Shown here piece by piece: positions 2,589 to 14,083 of a stretch of DNA of 64,000 nt. How positions within the stretch are numbered: the first letter of the stretch is position 1; every line of letters starts with the position of its first letter. Source of the DNA: Levilactobacillus zymae. GTDB lineage: Bacteria > Bacillota > Bacilli > Lactobacillales > Lactobacillaceae. The translations under genes and the position numbers were made by a program. The notes beneath the pieces are model-generated. The model saw only the letters and a list, made by a program, of their open reading frames with translations. It had not been told where the DNA came from and searched no databases. The stretch covers positions 1,550,001 to 1,614,000 of the forward strand of contig NZ_JAVLAS010000001.1 of assembly GCF_032190635.1 (NCBI RefSeq), written 5' to 3'.

Positions 2589-3149
2589 ATGAAGAAAACT
2601 TTTTTTAATCCGGAGACCGAAACGACGGGCGATTACACTGAAGTTTGGCAGTATGAAGTTGTCCCGATTAAAGACGTTAAGGATCTCCTGGTGCGCACTC
2701 ATTATTGGCAAGATGCAGATGGCGAACTGTGGTTAGACTTTAACGATCCTAACGAAAATTTCAGAAGTATTTTTACGGCTTATCGAGCGCGAAAAGGGTA
2801 CCTACAACCCCAGCAGATTAAGACTCTCCGCCATCAATTAGGCTTATCCGTGCGCGAATTTGCACGTCGGTTAGGCCTCAGCTATGCCAAACTTTCTCAG
2901 ATTGAAAACAATAAGCGTATCCAGACGCTTTCTCAAGAAATTTCCTTTAGAAAGGCCCAGCAGGATTATCAGCAACAAGGCTTCTTGACCGCCTACCCGG
3001 CGCCCCAAGACCCGGGGACCCTGTTGACCCAGGCGCTATCAGCACGATCGATTGAAAATTTAAAGCCTAGACGCCAAACTTATATGACGCATGAGTTGGG
3101 TCGGACGAATTACTTTGAAATTGGTAAACTTTCGGGAGGGATGGCCTAA
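2589..3149 (+). CDS. HTH antitoxin of MqsA type with C-terminal extension
   Basis: This 186-residue protein has an N-terminal domain (about 1-75) that should contact the toxin and a Cro/C1-type HTH at about 75-125 (LGLSVREFARRLGLSYAKLS, then QIENNKR). The remaining ~55 residues form an extension without HTH features. In toxin-antitoxin-chaperone systems such an extension is the chaperone-addiction segment that makes the antitoxin unstable without its SecB-like partner. A good ribosome site (GGGGAG) precedes ATG 2589. The gene overlaps the chaperone gene by TAATG, indicating coupled translation. It probably represses its own operon through the palindrome at 2127-2154. Confidence 0.8.
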   Translation: MKKTFFNPETETTGDYTEVWQYEVVPIKDVKDLLVRTHYWQDADGELWLDFNDPNENFRSIFTAYRARKGYLQPQQIKTLRHQLGLSVREFARRLGLSYAKLSQIENNKRIQTLSQEISFRKAQQDYQQQGFLTAYPAPQDPGTLLTQALSARSIENLKPRRQTYMTHELGRTNYFEIGKLSGGMA

Positions 3150-9411: not shown

Positions 9412-9552
9412 GGTGACATGATTTGGGCTCAGTTTGACTACGGTTTAGAATTTTAGTCATCATTTTCTTCTCTGCCAATCCAGCCCTTTACAGCGCCCCC
9501 TAAAACCTGCTATAAAAGAACTAACACTTTACCAAAAGAGAGGACCTTACCC

Positions 9553-9975
9553 ATGCAACGAAAATATCGTGATTACTTTGCCTACCTGAAGACCATCAAC
9601 CCGGACCCCAACGCGTCGTTTATCGCGGTCAGCCCGGCCAACGTGCAAAAGACCGACCCCGAGAAGTTTGCGACGCTGACCGCCCGAGCCGGTCGGCGGT
9701 GGGGCGTCATCCTGTTTCACGCCCTGTACGGTAACAAGACCACCAAGAAGACCCACGTTCCGTACGCGGTGGTCCACGACGACACCTTCGCGCACGACTG
9801 GGACGGCATCGACCGGGGCGAATTTGACGCCGACGTGGCCATTTTAGTTCAGTGCCAAATGCTGCAGGTCAAGGAAGTTCAAGGCTTAACGCGGCTCATT
9901 ATGCGTTATCCCGAACCACTGGCGAGTCTGGCCGACCTGCGAATCAAGGGCATCGACCAGATCAATCCCGGTTAA
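9553..9975 (+). CDS. Conserved-looking protein of unknown function
   Basis: I do not recognise this 140-residue protein. It has no signal peptide or transmembrane helix. It is mixed alpha/beta with a basic central part (RAGRRWGV, GNKTTKKTHV) and a C-terminal acidic/hydrophobic half. Codon use is like the neighbours and the frame is open with a good start (ATG 9553, AGAGAGG upstream), so it is a real gene. It stands alone between a terminator and the leader transcript at 9988. Confidence 0.65.
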   Translation: MQRKYRDYFAYLKTINPDPNASFIAVSPANVQKTDPEKFATLTARAGRRWGVILFHALYGNKTTKKTHVPYAVVHDDTFAHDWDGIDRGEFDADVAILVQCQMLQVKEVQGLTRLIMRYPEPLASLADLRIKGIDQINPG

Positions 9976-9987
9976 CCTTAACCGGCC

Positions 9988-10016
9988 TTGACAGGGGCCA
10001 ACCAGAACATTATAGT
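9988..10016 (+). promoter_or_regulatory. Sigma-A promoter of the leader transcript
   Basis: TTGACA (9988-9993) and TATAGT (10011-10016) are separated by exactly 17 bases. Transcription should start near 10023, just upstream of the leader peptide ribosome site. Confidence 0.85.
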
Positions 10017-10046
10017 TAGATTAAGAATTAATGAGGAGCTCATCAT

Positions 10047-10109
10047 ATGACATTATTGGGAATCACGTTAAACGGTAACTCGCGTTTCGCCTTTTGGTAT
10101 TTTCGCTAG
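10047..10109 (+). CDS. Leader peptide ending in an aromatic run
   Basis: The ORF has a strong ribosome site (GAGGAG, 10033-10038) eight bases before ATG 10047. It encodes 20 residues, MTLLGITLNGNSRFAFWYFR, then TAG. Five of the last seven residues are Phe, Trp or Tyr. Leader peptides rich in the regulated amino acid are the hallmark of ribosome-mediated attenuation (trp, phe, his operons of enterics). The genes behind it encode an aminotransferase and a 2-hydroxyacid dehydrogenase, enzymes suited to aromatic amino acid breakdown, so the match of codons to pathway is meaningful. The regulatory role is an inference. Confidence 0.7.
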   Translation: MTLLGITLNGNSRFAFWYFR

Positions 10110-10243
10110 TGTTTGTGCCCGCTACTGAGGTGCAAACACGATTCTGTGCTTTGCATCGATGCGGCGTGCCAAAAGTTTTTTGTGAGGTCCCAACGCCCAT
10201 GGATGTATTTCAATCCAGGGGTGCCATTATCGGATTTTTAAGC

Positions 10244-10283
10244 AACACACCCTTGGTTTAACCAGCTAAGGGTGTGTTTTTTA
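10244..10283 (+). terminator. Strong terminator between leader and aminotransferase gene
   Basis: AACACACCCTT pairs with AAGGGTGTGTT over 11 bp, with a run of T after it. It lies 50 bases before the structural gene, so the operon needs readthrough or another promoter. This fits an attenuator. Confidence 0.9.
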
Positions 10284-10332
10284 TTGATCATATTGCTGCC
10301 ACCATTGATCCACAATCTGAGGAGGAATGCTT

Positions 10333-11532
10333 ATGTCCATTAGTCCCGAAAGCTTAACCCACCACATGAATCGTGCCATCGCCGGAATTCAACCGTCCGA
10401 CATCTTGGCCTTCAACGCCGAAATTGCCAACATCCCCGGTATCGTCCGCTTGACGCTGGGCGAACCCGATTTCAATACGCCCGAACACGTCAAACAGGCC
10501 GCCATTCGCAGTATCGAAAACAACGAGAGCCACTACGCACCGTCTAACGGGACGCCGGCGTTGCGGCAGGCCGCGGCGAACTTCTTAGCCACCAAATACG
10601 ACCTACACTACGACCCGGCCACCGAAGTCATCGTCACGGCCGGGGCCACTGAGGGAATTTACACGGCGTTAACGTCGATCTTAAATCCTGGCGACGAGGT
10701 CCTGATCCCCACGCCGATTTTCCCACTCTACATCGCCGTGGCGCAGGTCAACGGGGCCGTGCCAGTCTTCATGGACACGTCGGCGGACGGGTTCGTCTTA
10801 ACGCCCGAAAAGCTAAAGGCCACCTTGGCCGCCCATCCCAAGACCAAGGCCGTCGTGCTCAACTTTCCGTCGAATCCGACCGGCGTAACTTACCGGGCCA
10901 CCGACTTGCAGGCGTTAGCCGCTGTCTTGGCCGATCAGCCGGTCTTCGTCTTATCCGACGAAAGCTACAGCGAACTGACCTACGGGGCGACCCACGTGTC
11001 GATCGCACAATACCTACCGGACCAAACTATTCTGCTCAACGGGGTCTCCAAATCCCACGCGATGACCGGTTGGCGGATTGGTCTGATGTGTGCGCCAAAG
11101 GCCATCACAGCCCAACTGGGCAAGATTCACCAATTCACGATCACGTCGACCACCACGAACGCCCAGGCTGCGGCGACCGAAGCGCTGGCTAACGGTCTCG
11201 ATGACGGACAAAAAATGAAACAGGAATACCAGGCGCGCCGCGATTACCTGGTGGCCGCGCTGGACCAGATTGGGTTCAAGTCGGCGAAGCCGGAAGGGGC
11301 GTTCTACCTCTTCAGTAAGATTCCGGCTGGCCTGCCGCAAGACAGTATGGCCTTCTGTCGCGAACTGGCCCACGAGGCCCGCGTGGCGTTGATTCCCGGG
11401 AGTTCGTTTGGCCCCGGTGGGGAAGGCTACGTGCGGATCAGTTACGCCGCTTCCATGGCCGACTTGAAAACGGCCGTCGAGCGGATGACGGCTTACGTGG
11501 CGGCGAAGGGCTTAACCAAGGAGGAATCGTAA
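10333..11532 (+). CDS. PLP aminotransferase class I (aromatic type likely)
   Basis: The 399-residue fold-type I aminotransferase moves the amino group of an amino acid to a 2-oxo acid. The PLP lysine is in SKSHAMTGWRIG (near 238), the substrate arginine in GYVRISYA near the C terminus, and NFPSNPTGV and SDESYSEL are family motifs. It fits the AraT/PatA branch used for aromatic and branched amino acids in lactobacilli. I prefer ATG 10333 because GGAGGA abuts the upstream ATG at 10327. A D-2-hydroxyacid dehydrogenase follows two bases after the stop, which would reduce the 2-oxo product. An attenuator-like leader precedes it. Confidence 0.88.
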   Translation: MSISPESLTHHMNRAIAGIQPSDILAFNAEIANIPGIVRLTLGEPDFNTPEHVKQAAIRSIENNESHYAPSNGTPALRQAAANFLATKYDLHYDPATEVIVTAGATEGIYTALTSILNPGDEVLIPTPIFPLYIAVAQVNGAVPVFMDTSADGFVLTPEKLKATLAAHPKTKAVVLNFPSNPTGVTYRATDLQALAAVLADQPVFVLSDESYSELTYGATHVSIAQYLPDQTILLNGVSKSHAMTGWRIGLMCAPKAITAQLGKIHQFTITSTTTNAQAAATEALANGLDDGQKMKQEYQARRDYLVAALDQIGFKSAKPEGAFYLFSKIPAGLPQDSMAFCRELAHEARVALIPGSSFGPGGEGYVRISYAASMADLKTAVERMTAYVAAKGLTKEES

Positions 11533-11534
11533 CG

Positions 11535-12527
11535 ATGAAAATTTTAATGTACAGCGTACGGCCCGACGAACAGGCCGCCATTCACGACTGGGCGGACCGG
11601 CATCAGGTCCAGGTCGATACCAACGACTTGGAGTTTCACCCGGATACGGCGCATCTGGTCCAAGGGTATGACGGTCTAATCATCCAACAACGTAGCGCCA
11701 TCGGGGATGACCCCAGCGTCTACCAGCAGTTGGCCGACTGGGGCCTTCAGCAACTGACCAGCCGGACCGCCGGGGTGGACACCATCGACGTGGCGGCGGC
11801 CAAGGCGGCCGGGCTAACGGTGACCAACGTGCCGGCCTATTCTCCGAATTCGGTGGCCGAAATGGCGGTCGCCCAGACCATGCGGCTGATTCGCAACCTG
11901 GAACTGTTCGACCGGCGCATCGGCCAGCAGAACTTCCAGTGGGCCGGGCTGCAGGCCCGCGAGATTCGCTCGTTAACCGTCGGCATCATCGGGGCCGGCC
12001 GCATCGGGGGCGTGGCCGCCCGGTTGTTTCACGGGTTAGGCGCCAAGGTGATTGCCTTTGACCCGGTCCACCACACCGAATTAACGGACGTGTTAACCTA
12101 CGTGGATACGAAAGAAGACCTGTTGCGCCAAGCCGACGTGGTGGACCTCCACGTGGACCTGAACCCCACGTCGCAGGGGTTACTGGACGCGGCGGCGTTC
12201 AAGCAGATGAAAAATGACGCCTTCGTGGTCAACGCCTCACGGGGACCGGTCATCGTGACGGCCGATTTGGTCGCCGCCTTAAAGGCCGGGGAACTGGCCG
12301 GGGCGGCGCTCGACACGGTCGAAGGCGAAGCGGCGTTATTTAACCAGGACCACTCCGACGACATATTACAAGACCCGTTGATCGCCCAGTTGATGCAGAT
12401 GCCTAACGTGATGATCACCCCGCACGTGGGTTTTTACACCAACCTGGCCGTCAAGAACATGGTCGACATCAGTCTCGATGACGTGTTGACTATCGTGCAG
12501 GGCGGGACCAGCGACCACACGATTTAA
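11535..12527 (+). CDS. D-2-hydroxyacid dehydrogenase (D-HicDH/phenyllactate type)
   Basis: The 330-residue NAD-dependent enzyme reduces 2-oxo acids to D-2-hydroxy acids. The cofactor motif GIIGAGRIGG lies near residue 150; the catalytic Arg is in NASRGPVI, the Glu in the DTVEGE region and the His in TPHVGFYT near 297. With the upstream aminotransferase it would turn amino acids such as phenylalanine into hydroxy acids such as phenyllactate, recycling NADH. D-lactate or D-hydroxyisocaproate are alternative products. The short gap to the aminotransferase indicates one transcript. Confidence 0.88.
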   Translation: MKILMYSVRPDEQAAIHDWADRHQVQVDTNDLEFHPDTAHLVQGYDGLIIQQRSAIGDDPSVYQQLADWGLQQLTSRTAGVDTIDVAAAKAAGLTVTNVPAYSPNSVAEMAVAQTMRLIRNLELFDRRIGQQNFQWAGLQAREIRSLTVGIIGAGRIGGVAARLFHGLGAKVIAFDPVHHTELTDVLTYVDTKEDLLRQADVVDLHVDLNPTSQGLLDAAAFKQMKNDAFVVNASRGPVIVTADLVAALKAGELAGAALDTVEGEAALFNQDHSDDILQDPLIAQLMQMPNVMITPHVGFYTNLAVKNMVDISLDDVLTIVQGGTSDHTI

Positions 12528-12540
12528 ATCAAACATCATG

Positions 12541-12578
12541 AGCCCCACCCCTAAACGCTGACTTGGGGTGGGGCTTTG
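12541..12578 (+). terminator. Intrinsic terminator of the aminotransferase operon
   Basis: AGCCCCACCC pairs with GGGTGGGGCT, followed by a short T run. Confidence 0.85.
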
Positions 12579-12610
12579 CACGTTAATCGATCTATAAGAA
12601 TTATTTTTAA

Positions 12611-12682
12611 GTTATAACGATATATATGCTTTGTGTCAAGGGAATGCTAAACAGTTGACATTCAATGTTATAACATTAAAAT
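12611..12682 (+). promoter_or_regulatory. Promoter with GTTATAAC operators for AbrB-Doc
   Basis: TTGACA (12655-12660) and TAAAAT (12677-12682) are 16 bases apart. The spacer holds the perfect palindrome ATGTTATAACAT (12665-12676). Its core GTTATAAC occurs again at 12611-12618. Two copies around a promoter suggest cooperative autorepression by the AbrB-type antitoxin. Confidence 0.7.
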
Positions 12683-12740
12683 GTAGATTAAATTGATGCT
12701 TCAGTTAAACAGGCATGCCTGGTGAAAGGAGTTAATAACT

Positions 12741-12992
12741 ATGGATAATGTCAAAGATGATCTCAAGCGAAACGTCATTCAGGTTGGCAATTCTATTGGG
12801 ATGACGATTCCCAAGAAAATTGCTGACGAAATGGCACTTTCCACTGATTCAAAAGTCCAAATCGTGCCCACTGACCAGGGCTTCTTGGTAACCAAACTGG
12901 AGAATGCGGATCCTGATTTTGTGGAAGCCATGAACTACTCATTTGATAAGTATCACGAAACCTTGGAAATGCTTCGTAAGGGCGACGAATAA
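12741..12992 (+). CDS. AbrB/MazE-type antitoxin
   Basis: The 83-residue protein has an N-terminal SpoVT/AbrB swapped-hairpin DNA-binding domain (VIQVGNSIGMTIPKKIADEM, residues about 11-30) and an acidic C-terminal tail (about 55-83) suited to bind and block the toxin. A ribosome site AAAGGAG precedes ATG 12741. It overlaps the toxin start by the sequence TAATG, so the two are co-translated. Doc toxins are classically paired with Phd; here the partner is AbrB-like. Confidence 0.85.
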   Translation: MDNVKDDLKRNVIQVGNSIGMTIPKKIADEMALSTDSKVQIVPTDQGFLVTKLENADPDFVEAMNYSFDKYHETLEMLRKGDE

Positions 12993-13384
12993 TGCGTTAT
13001 TTATCAGCGAATGAACTCGTTCAACTCAACCAAAAGGTCCTTTCGGCGTCAAATCAAGTCTCACAAATTCGAAATGCTAAGGGATTAGGCTCAATCGAGG
13101 CCTTACCGCGTCAATCATTTTTTGGCACCGAAGCCTATCCCAAGCTCTCTCAAAAACTAGGAATCGTTTTCATCAAAATCATCAATCTACATCCCTTTGC
13201 TGATGGGAATAAACGGACCGCAGTCCTGGCTTTATCGGTTATGGCGCGGTTAAATAACTATGATTTAACTTTTTCGATTGTTGACTTAAATGATTTTGCT
13301 TTAATGGTTGCCCAATTGGAGGATGGCCAATTAGATTATGACCAAGTTTTTCAAACGATTGCGACGCACTTAAAACAAAGATGA
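12992..13384 (+). CDS. doc: Doc/Fic-family toxin
   Basis: A 130-residue single-domain Fic fold protein. The active-site motif HPFADGNKRTA (near residues 65-75) is intact. Doc enzymes phosphorylate EF-Tu, other Fic proteins add AMP; the short length and antitoxin pairing favour Doc. An N-terminal segment similar to LIHRQALSEPAYP-type Doc proteins is visible as GSIEALPRQ. It is coupled to the AbrB-type antitoxin. A bidirectional terminator follows. Confidence 0.88.
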   Translation: MRYLSANELVQLNQKVLSASNQVSQIRNAKGLGSIEALPRQSFFGTEAYPKLSQKLGIVFIKIINLHPFADGNKRTAVLALSVMARLNNYDLTFSIVDLNDFALMVAQLEDGQLDYDQVFQTIATHLKQR

Positions 13385-13442
13385 TTTGATTTATAAGATC
13401 TACGCAAAAGCGGGGCCTTAATTTCACTCATCACTGTAAGCT

Positions 13443-13488
13443 AAACACGCTACCCCAACGTTATCGAAACCGTCAGGGTAGCGTGTTT
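13443..13488. terminator. Bidirectional terminator
   Basis: AAACACGCTACCC pairs with GGGTAGCGTGTTT over 13 bp. It lies between the converging toxin gene and the Crp-type regulator. Confidence 0.9.
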
Positions 13489-13492
13489 AAAT

Positions 13493-14083
13493 TTATTCTG
13501 GTGGCGTTTCCCGACCCAACCGGGAGCGAATCCGGCTCAACGACACGGGCGTCATCCCCAGGTAGGTCGCAATCTCGTGGAGCAGCACCCGATCGAGCAC
13601 CTCGGAATTGTCGGCGACCAAGGCCTGATAGCGCCCGGTCGGGGTCCTTTGCAGCTGGGTGTAGACCCGTTGACGGTAGGCCATGAACCGCTCGCACAAC
13701 CACCGATTGAGGCTGGTTTCGAATTCCGGGTAGGCTTGCCGAAGAGTATCGAAGTCCGTCTTAGATAAGACCAATAGCGTCGTGGGTTCCAGGCTGGTGA
13801 TCGCCGATTCGCTGGGGCGCTGCAGGTAGAAGCTTTCAAACGACGCGACGGGTTGGTTCTCGAAGAAAAACTGAAACGTGATGTCCCGGCCGCTGGCGGT
13901 GGTCCGCCACATGCGCAAGCTACCCTGAACGATCAAATAGAGGTTGGTGGCCACGTCGCCGGCCGCTAGTAACGTGGTCTGGGCGGGGATTGAATCCGTT
14001 TTAAATTTAGATTGAACGCTGGTCCAGTGCGCCGCTAACTCGGGAAACTGGGCCCGTAAATAGGCGGGTAATTCAATTGCCAT
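13493..14083 (-). CDS. Crp/Fnr-family transcriptional regulator
   Basis: The ~196-residue protein has a cyclic-nucleotide-binding-like beta barrel (residues about 25-115) and a C-terminal winged helix with LHEIATYLGMTPVSLSRIRS near 165-185. No cluster of cysteines for an Fe-S centre is seen, so oxygen sensing of the FNR type is unlikely. The ATG at 14083, with GGAG eight bases upstream, is preferred over the ATG at 14107. It is divergent from the flavoprotein gene at 14178, its probable target. Confidence 0.85.
   Translation of the reverse strand: MAIELPAYLRAQFPELAAHWTSVQSKFKTDSIPAQTTLLAAGDVATNLYLIVQGSLRMWRTTASGRDITFQFFFENQPVASFESFYLQRPSESAITSLEPTTLLVLSKTDFDTLRQAYPEFETSLNRWLCERFMAYRQRVYTQLQRTPTGRYQALVADNSEVLDRVLLHEIATYLGMTPVSLSRIRSRLGRETPPE

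Follow-up and report, generated by a model that had tools for sequence, protein, structure and literature searches.

A probable aromatic leader-peptide attenuator upstream of an aminotransferase/D-hydroxyacid dehydrogenase operon in Levilactobacillus zymae and other Lactobacillaceae

The aryl-lactates of lactic acid bacteria (phenyllactate, indolelactate) serve as antifungal preservatives in food and as signals to the host; to our knowledge, the control of the genes for their formation is little described. In a stretch of 64,000 nucleotides from Levilactobacillus zymae (the window; all positions refer to its forward strand), an aminotransferase/hydroxyacid dehydrogenase gene pair is preceded by a short reading frame rich in aromatic codons. 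The initial annotation took this leader for a ribosome-sensing attenuator that governs the catabolism of aromatic amino acids to aryl-lactates. Does such a device exist here, and would it switch the operon on when aromatic amino acids are scarce or when they are plentiful?

Leader Region and Downstream Operon

The promoter read at the start of the leader was borne out at positions 9988-10016, where TTGACA (9988-9993) and TATAGT (10011-10016) are separated by a spacer of 17 bases and match the consensus at 11 of 12 positions. A GAGGAG ribosome-binding site (10033-10038), which is kept in the alignment of the window's own group (A2, below), precedes a leader ORF of 20 codons, MTLLGITLNGNSRFAFWYFR (10047-10109, with ATG at 10047 and stop codon TAG at 10107-10109). 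Translation confirmed the aromatic C terminus RFAFWYFR. Judged from the translation and from the block columns in relatives, the sensing codons are Phe14-Ala15-Phe16-Trp17-Tyr18-Phe19 (10086-10103). A short ORF with its ribosome-binding site thus lies between the promoter and the first gene, the arrangement expected of a ribosome-mediated attenuator. By eye, an inverted repeat, ATGAG-gag-CTCAT (10031-10043), was seen to flank the leader ribosome-binding site.

Hairpins and a strong terminator had also been proposed ahead of the aminotransferase gene, and both are present. The intrinsic terminator consists of a 15-pair stem (10244-10278) followed by TTTT and lies 55 bases before ATG 10333. A simple terminator scan of 9500-14000 returned 7 sites with 5.7 expected, so the weight lies on conservation of the terminator and not on its presence alone. 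Folding of the leader RNA was better than that of 100 out of 100 dinucleotide shuffles (z -3.96).

The regulated aminotransferase gene (10333-11532) had its best NCBIfam match with PRK07309 at 560.8 bits, slightly below the cut-off of 576. An alternative in-frame ATG is found at 10327, but the start is likely ATG 10333 because AGGAGG (10320-10325) is better spaced for it and the relatives compared also start there. The second gene of the operon, 2 bases 3' of the first, encodes a D-2-hydroxyacid dehydrogenase of the D-lactate type (11535-12527; PRK08605, 301.1 bits, cut-off 356). From the enzyme family, the operon presumably handles Phe, Tyr, and Trp. Immediately 3' of the operon, at 12741-13384, a small antidote-like gene (TIGR02609, under cut-off) stands beside a gene for a Doc-family toxin (TIGR01550, over cut-off).

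Conservation of the Leader among Relatives

Close aminotransferase orthologs were defined by tblastn scores of at least 440 bits, to which two loci (L024 and L029) were added. Among the resulting 155 loci, species shared by two collections occur more than once and the window occurs twice; the distinct upstream sequences number 139. An aromatic leader was present at 124 of the 155 loci, in 110 distinct sequences; the same filter found it at none of 84 loci with more distant aminotransferase homologs. A dehydrogenase homolog followed downstream at 109 of the 124 leader-bearing loci versus 10 of the 31 leaderless ones. Among the 31 close orthologs for which no leader was detected, two (L140 and L142) show a leader tail at the edge of the sequence, one (L183) has the leader pattern about 660 bases upstream, beyond the stretch taken for the count, and L024 carries a weaker leader; at several others another gene seems, by eye, to lie directly upstream. 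At L140, L142, and L183, where the leader is at least 400 bases upstream, repeated hairpin-like elements were seen by eye between it and the aminotransferase gene.

An automatic search found a terminator in 99 of the 110 distinct leaders. The 11 leaders in which it found none were excluded from the analysis of terminator-arm pairing, and the 99 were thinned by k-mer similarity to 51 non-redundant leaders. These contain a mean of 6.1 aromatic codons per 20.6 residues, with Phe and Tyr codons in all 51 and Trp codons in 43. A promoter with at least 10 of 12 matches lies upstream in 33 of the 51, as compared with 4.3% of shuffles. All but one could be anchored on the leader block, which mostly reads [FY]-Y-F-W-[FY]-F and is followed by 1, 2, or 4 more residues in 49 of the 50 anchored leaders. 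The alignment in related genomes that the initial annotation had proposed as a check thus found the ORF, its aromatic codons, and the terminator conserved.

Named genomes were scanned with the aminotransferase, and the best 80 of 586 relatives were retained. Nineteen of these 80 passed the filter (aromatic ORF plus ribosome-binding site), and 17 of them resemble the same leader; those of L034 and L057 look like chance matches and were set aside. Named hosts among the best 80 of 586 include Lactiplantibacillus, Agrilactobacillus, Loigolactobacillus, Liquorilactobacillus, Lentilactobacillus, Pediococcus, Weissella, Bombilactobacillus, Sporolactobacillus, and Bifidobacterium. The aminotransferase was found at E <=1e-100 in 335 of 397 family genomes, from which 100 places among the matches listed and 28 further loci from the same search were taken. 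In a class-wide sample of 348 genomes, an ortholog at E <=1e-138 occurred only in the window's genome and in one other (L263), the leader of which, read by eye, is of the same kind and ends in FYYYFGFFR.

A six-residue leader pattern, which misses the window's own leader, matched in at least 201 of the 397 family genomes. Inspection of 20 such places yielded two leaders of this kind (L247 and L248); the other 18 were rejected by their appearance as chance matches or parts of other frames. In L247 and L248, both of genus g24, the similar leader, MMTTTTVKTTYAFYFWFFGNSSN, is followed by a hairpin resembling a terminator and then by a gene whose product begins MQTQQ(R/Q)DL and looks like another aminotransferase. 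In two Bifidobacterium loci (L013 and L014; about 2795-3005) the operon has an aromatic leader, MQGTRFTYWWHGFDL. No terminator was found at these two loci, a 10-pair hairpin covers the ribosome-binding site, and masked folding (described below) gives no switch.

In the window's genus, an ortholog of >90% identity was present in 3 of 35 genomes. The next nearest named orthologs among the best 80 of 586 were those of Lactiplantibacillus (82-85%), together with one of 86% in an uncultured 'Lactobacillus'. The scarcity of >90% orthologs within the genus and the position of the nearest ones in Lactiplantibacillus suggest, as far as sequence comparison goes, that the operon moved by transfer along with its leader.

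Competing Segments and Their Covariation

From the sensing codons to the aminotransferase gene, the window RNA contains a series of complementary segments. Segment 0 (10091-10100, CTTTTGGTAT), identified by complementarity and folding, is the codon strand of a mirror helix, 0:0'; its mirror strand, segment 0' (10166-10175, GTGCCAAAAG), covaries in relatives, with one two-sided change in the window's group. Segment 1 (10109-10119, GTGTTTGTGCC) begins at the final base of the stop codon. Segment 1' (10129-10139, GGTGCAAACAC) can pair with segment 1 or with segment 2 (10150-10166, TTTGCATCGATGCGGCG), which in turn is a partner of 1' through 10150-10157 or of segment 3a (10193-10206, ACGCCCATGGATGT). 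Segment 3a pairs with 2 or with segment 3b (10213-10225, containing CCAGGGGTG at 10215-10223), and 3b pairs with 3a in the OFF state or with segment 4 in the antiterminator. Segment 4 (10244-10258) is the 5' arm of the terminator and, through 10248-10256, the antiterminator partner. Segment 5 (10264-10282) is made up of the 3' arm (10264-10278) and TTTT; the stem that this arm forms with segment 4 covaries in the window group. The duplex energies in the window are -16.8 kcal/mol for 0:0', -16.7 for 1:1', -14.2 for 1':2, -21.3 for 2:3a, -15.8 for 3a:3b, -16.7 for 3b:4, and -23.1 for 4:5.

Pairing was examined in 70 chosen leaders arranged in three alignments, A1 (31), A2 (23, the window group), and A3 (16); two further leader groups (11 and 14 leaders) stand outside them. 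Compensatory changes were observed in several helices. In A1, 95.4% of the cells of the OFF helices 0:0', 2:3, and 4:5 are paired, as against at most 52.5% in slid controls. These helices contain 11 two-sided pairs, a number reached by 6 of 500 shuffles, and 80 changed cells, reached by none of the 500. The A1 ON helices 1:2 and 3:4 are paired in 91.2% of cells (slid controls, at most 42.7%), with covariation in these two helices not above that of column shuffles (119 of 500 reached the value for changed cells). In A2, 93.0% of the cells of 0:0' and the terminator are paired, and of 8 two-sided pairs, 7 are within the terminator; none of 500 shuffles was as high. The 1:1' helix and the antiterminator of A2 are paired in 96.0% of cells, the antiterminator having no two-sided changes in this group and 1:1' being invariant. 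The antiterminator of A3 is paired in 96.4% of cells and has two-sided changes in 3 of 7 pairs (reached by 10 of 500 shuffles). Antiterminator pairing is thus far above slid controls in all three alignments, and its two-sided changes are clearly above shuffles only in A3.

The search for helices 1:1' and 1':2 was widened because segment 1 starts before the stop codon in some leaders; a narrower search starting at the stop codon found 1':2 in 15 of 30 leaders. Among 25 chosen leaders with the longer architecture of the window, 1:1' was better than 95% of shuffles in 23 and the competing 1':2 in 17, counts that are not independent because the leaders are related. In A1, an ATTC 5' of the ribosome-binding site is complementary to GAAT within the QLN codons of the leader, and both are nearly invariant. 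The conservation of QLN may be due to this RNA hairpin.

Proposed Mechanism

The claim of a ribosome-sensing attenuator is well supported by the conserved aromatic codons, by the terminator kept in 99 of 110 distinct leaders, and by the conserved alternative helices. We consider it very probable that the leader is a ribosome-mediated transcription attenuator whose signal is the charging of Phe-, Tyr-, and Trp-tRNA. Transcription would start from the promoter at 9988-10016, and a ribosome would translate the 20-codon leader. With uncharged aromatic tRNAs, the ribosome would presumably stall on the leader codons F14, F16, W17, or Y18. It would then cover segment 0 and leave segment 1 free, so that 1:1' and 2:3a could form; 3b would pair with the 5' arm of the terminator (3b:4), and the operon would be transcribed. 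With charged aromatic tRNAs, the ribosome would reach the end of the leader and cover segment 1. In that state 1':2 and 3a:3b would form, segment 4 would be free, and the terminator 4:5 would halt transcription. Once the ribosome has left, the codons would form the mirror helix (0:0').

Ribosome Position and Predicted Sign

The helix formed at each ribosome position was computed by masked folding, in which the ribosome-covered RNA is removed and the occupancy of the terminator 5' arm by the antiterminator is taken before synthesis of the 3' arm. The edge of the ribosome was assumed to lie 12 bases past the start of the A-site codon. For stalls at F14, F16, W17, and Y18 of the window (edges 10098-10110), the predicted antiterminator occupancy was 0.86-0.99, and it stayed in this range throughout edges 10092-10110. 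For F19, R20, and the stop codon (edges 10113-10119), it was 0.00-0.07; a stall at F19 (edge 10113) is thus predicted to be OFF. Earlier edges (10062-10074) gave 0.01-0.04. At edges 10122-10125 the antiterminator is back to 0.70-0.81, so the OFF state at the stop codon depends on the footprint assumed. Without translation, the window RNA is not clearly OFF, with values of 0.42-0.45 in one computation and 0.74 in another.

Equilibrium folding of the 70 aligned leaders gave more antiterminator in the stalled than in the stop-bound state, by >0.2, in 35 leaders (A1, 19/31; A2, 8/23; A3, 8/16), and in none was the order reversed by as much. With the same margin of 0.2, the stalled state exceeded untranslated RNA in 33 of the 70 and fell below it in 2. 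Several leaders of the window group (L117, L125, and L127 among them) are almost without antiterminator at nearly every edge. A cruder measure, which counts any upstream pairing of the terminator arm, is noisy, and the helix-specific measure was preferred. Applied to the 51 non-redundant leaders, the cruder measure was higher by >0.1 for stalled than for free RNA in 26, with the reverse in 5, and higher for stalled than for stop-bound RNA in 27, with the reverse in 4; the Wilcoxon p values (5e-5 and 5e-6, respectively) treat related leaders as independent. The mean contrasts were 0.141 (stalled minus free) and 0.164 (stalled minus stop-bound), as compared with 0.015 and 0.046 for shuffled spacers. 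For the window itself, this measure gave 0.18 free, 0.63 stalled, and 0.59 stop-bound, with no drop at the stop. All of the evidence for switching comes from equilibrium folding of leaders that are related to one another.

These calculations also bear on the possibility that the same device works with the opposite sign. Fast translation when aromatic amino acids abound would then lead to readthrough, and the substrates would induce a catabolic operon. The two enzymes are those that form aryl-lactates, a process usually regarded as catabolic, and the behavior of the untranslated window RNA, the recovery of the antiterminator just beyond the assumed stop footprint, and the 4 of 51 leaders with the reversed order in the cruder measure would all suit such induction. 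The 35 to 0 outcome of helix-specific folding and the 27 of 51 leaders in the cruder measure argue against it, and we regard the opposite sign as unlikely. The best reading of the folding results is that the operon is ON under aromatic starvation, as biosynthesis operons are.

The Codon-Mirror Helix and the Nature of the Signal

The sensing codons themselves take part in a conserved helix. In 42 of the 50 anchored leaders, an 8-base stretch over the Phe-Trp codons finds a perfect 8/8 complement (G-T allowed) within 90 bases past the stop codon, as compared with 17.6% of shuffles. Nine of the 50 have R, K, Y, G, or L at the Trp position, and 8 of these 9 keep a perfect mirror: the mirror tracks the codon in TGG/CCA, AAG/CTT, CGT/ACG, and TAT/ATA versions. 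In A3, whose 16 sequences are of the FYFWYFG type, all 144 mirror-helix cells are paired (slid controls, at most 54.9%), with two-sided changes in 3 of 9 pairs; in four sequences, codon TGG to AAG is matched by mirror CCA to CTT. In L082, the closest relative of the window, a T to C change that converts Phe16 to Leu is offset by an A to G change in the mirror, a compensation that costs one aromatic residue.

A TnaC-like sensor, in which a free aromatic amino acid would cause the aromatic nascent peptide in the exit tunnel to arrest the ribosome near the stop codon, would account for the conserved block [FY][FY]F-W-[FY]-F and for the upstream QLN that is conserved in many genera. However, the replacements of Trp with retention of the RNA mirror speak against invariant arrest residues; the Leu of QLN is changed to S, P, V, or M in A1, the stretch that follows the Trp position varies in length (3, 4, or 6 residues in 49 of the 51 entries counted) and with it the distance to the stop, and conservation of the block is also explained by codon supply plus pairing. 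Such a sensor appears quite improbable. A tRNA-binding T-box or metabolite riboswitch beside an accidental ORF is scarcely credible: T-boxes are common in the window's genome (31 candidates, 4 above the gathering score), but the leader ORF is conserved across genera, and Rfam, whose leader families we take to include Trp_leader and Phe_leader, gave no support, with no match at gathering score in the window (T-box RF00230 included), a best E of 1.5 in the leader (PyrR, 20.3 bits versus 54), and no match in the eight relatives' loci searched. Sensing of charged aromatic tRNAs by the translating ribosome is therefore the reading we retain.

Discussion

The proposal that the leader serves catabolism to aryl-lactates stands only in part. 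The enzyme pair fits it, and the leader accompanies the pair; the predicted sign is that of a supply operon and fits it poorly. Given that sign, the aminotransferase may run mainly in the direction from aryl-pyruvate to amino acid, and under stalling it would presumably work in this amino-acid-making direction. Of 397 family genomes, 40 had a prephenate dehydratase (PF00800); none was found in the genome of the window, which contains chorismate synthase and prephenate dehydrogenase. With this set of enzymes, an aromatic aminotransferase made under starvation could serve Tyr synthesis in the window's genome; in Phe auxotrophs it would perhaps rescue phenylpyruvate or phenyllactate.

In agreement with the initial annotation, which knew of no described example, our literature search found no such leader in lactic acid bacteria among the papers listed, although subscription journals were mostly outside its coverage and an older description could be missed. 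The proposed aromatic attenuator is widespread in lactic acid bacteria and apparently unreported so far. We tentatively suggest, as a possibility for which the odds are somewhat short of even, a widespread and unreported attenuator class of the Lactobacillaceae. In it, the sensing codons would double as one side of a conserved mirror helix, and the position of the ribosome would be relayed over about 150 bases to the terminator by as many as seven competing helices. The aminotransferase/D-hydroxyacid dehydrogenase pair, known for aryl-lactates, would be tied to aromatic starvation and would salvage or supply amino acids from aryl-lactate or aryl-pyruvate, with aryl-lactate output as a by-product. 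If true, control by ribosome stalling with the sign of a supply pathway would change which media can be expected to increase or decrease the enzymes, and a classic enterobacterial device would prove to be conserved in a family for which T-boxes were considered the rule.

The trp, phe, and his attenuators of enterobacteria combine a leader peptide rich in the regulated amino acid with mutually exclusive helices and an intrinsic terminator. The leader described here resembles them in its amino-acid-rich peptide, its exclusive helices, the terminator before the first gene, and its predicted ON state under starvation. It differs in that the lactobacillar leader combines all three aromatic amino acids, in that the enterobacterial series 1:2, 2:3, 3:4 is replaced in the window by a longer relay (0:0', 1:1', 1':2, 2:3a, 3a:3b, 3b:4, 4:5), in that the sensing codons themselves supply one side of the conserved mirror helix, and in that an aminotransferase/hydroxyacid dehydrogenase operon of Lactobacillaceae is controlled.

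Outside the proteobacteria, the uORFC-13-1 motif before aroF, the gene for DAHP synthase, is represented by 24 unique sequences from Acholeplasma and environmental samples (PMC8632094). Here, too, a leader ORF, which contains one or more Phe codons, and a terminator precede an aromatic amino acid gene; the motif differs from the leader described here in its amino acid (Phe), its target gene, and its host. The leucine-rich attenuator peptide of Staphylococcus aureus is also an amino-acid-rich leader that controls an amino acid operon, again in a Gram-positive bacterium of low GC content, but it concerns leucine and branched-chain synthesis in another genus (PMC5794164). Histidine attenuators of Firmicutes share the leader peptide and the alternative hairpins; as listed in their description, they precede His operons of the Bacillus cereus group, Eubacteriales, and Erysipelotrichales and not of lactobacilli, and for Lactobacillales, His T-boxes are named there as the means by which His genes are most often controlled (PMC9413887). 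The aromatic lactate (aldh) operon of Bifidobacterium is similar in that a transaminase adjoins a dehydrogenase that makes aryl-lactates, whereas its dehydrogenase is a Type 4 LDH and the account given of its control describes no leader peptide (PMC8556157).
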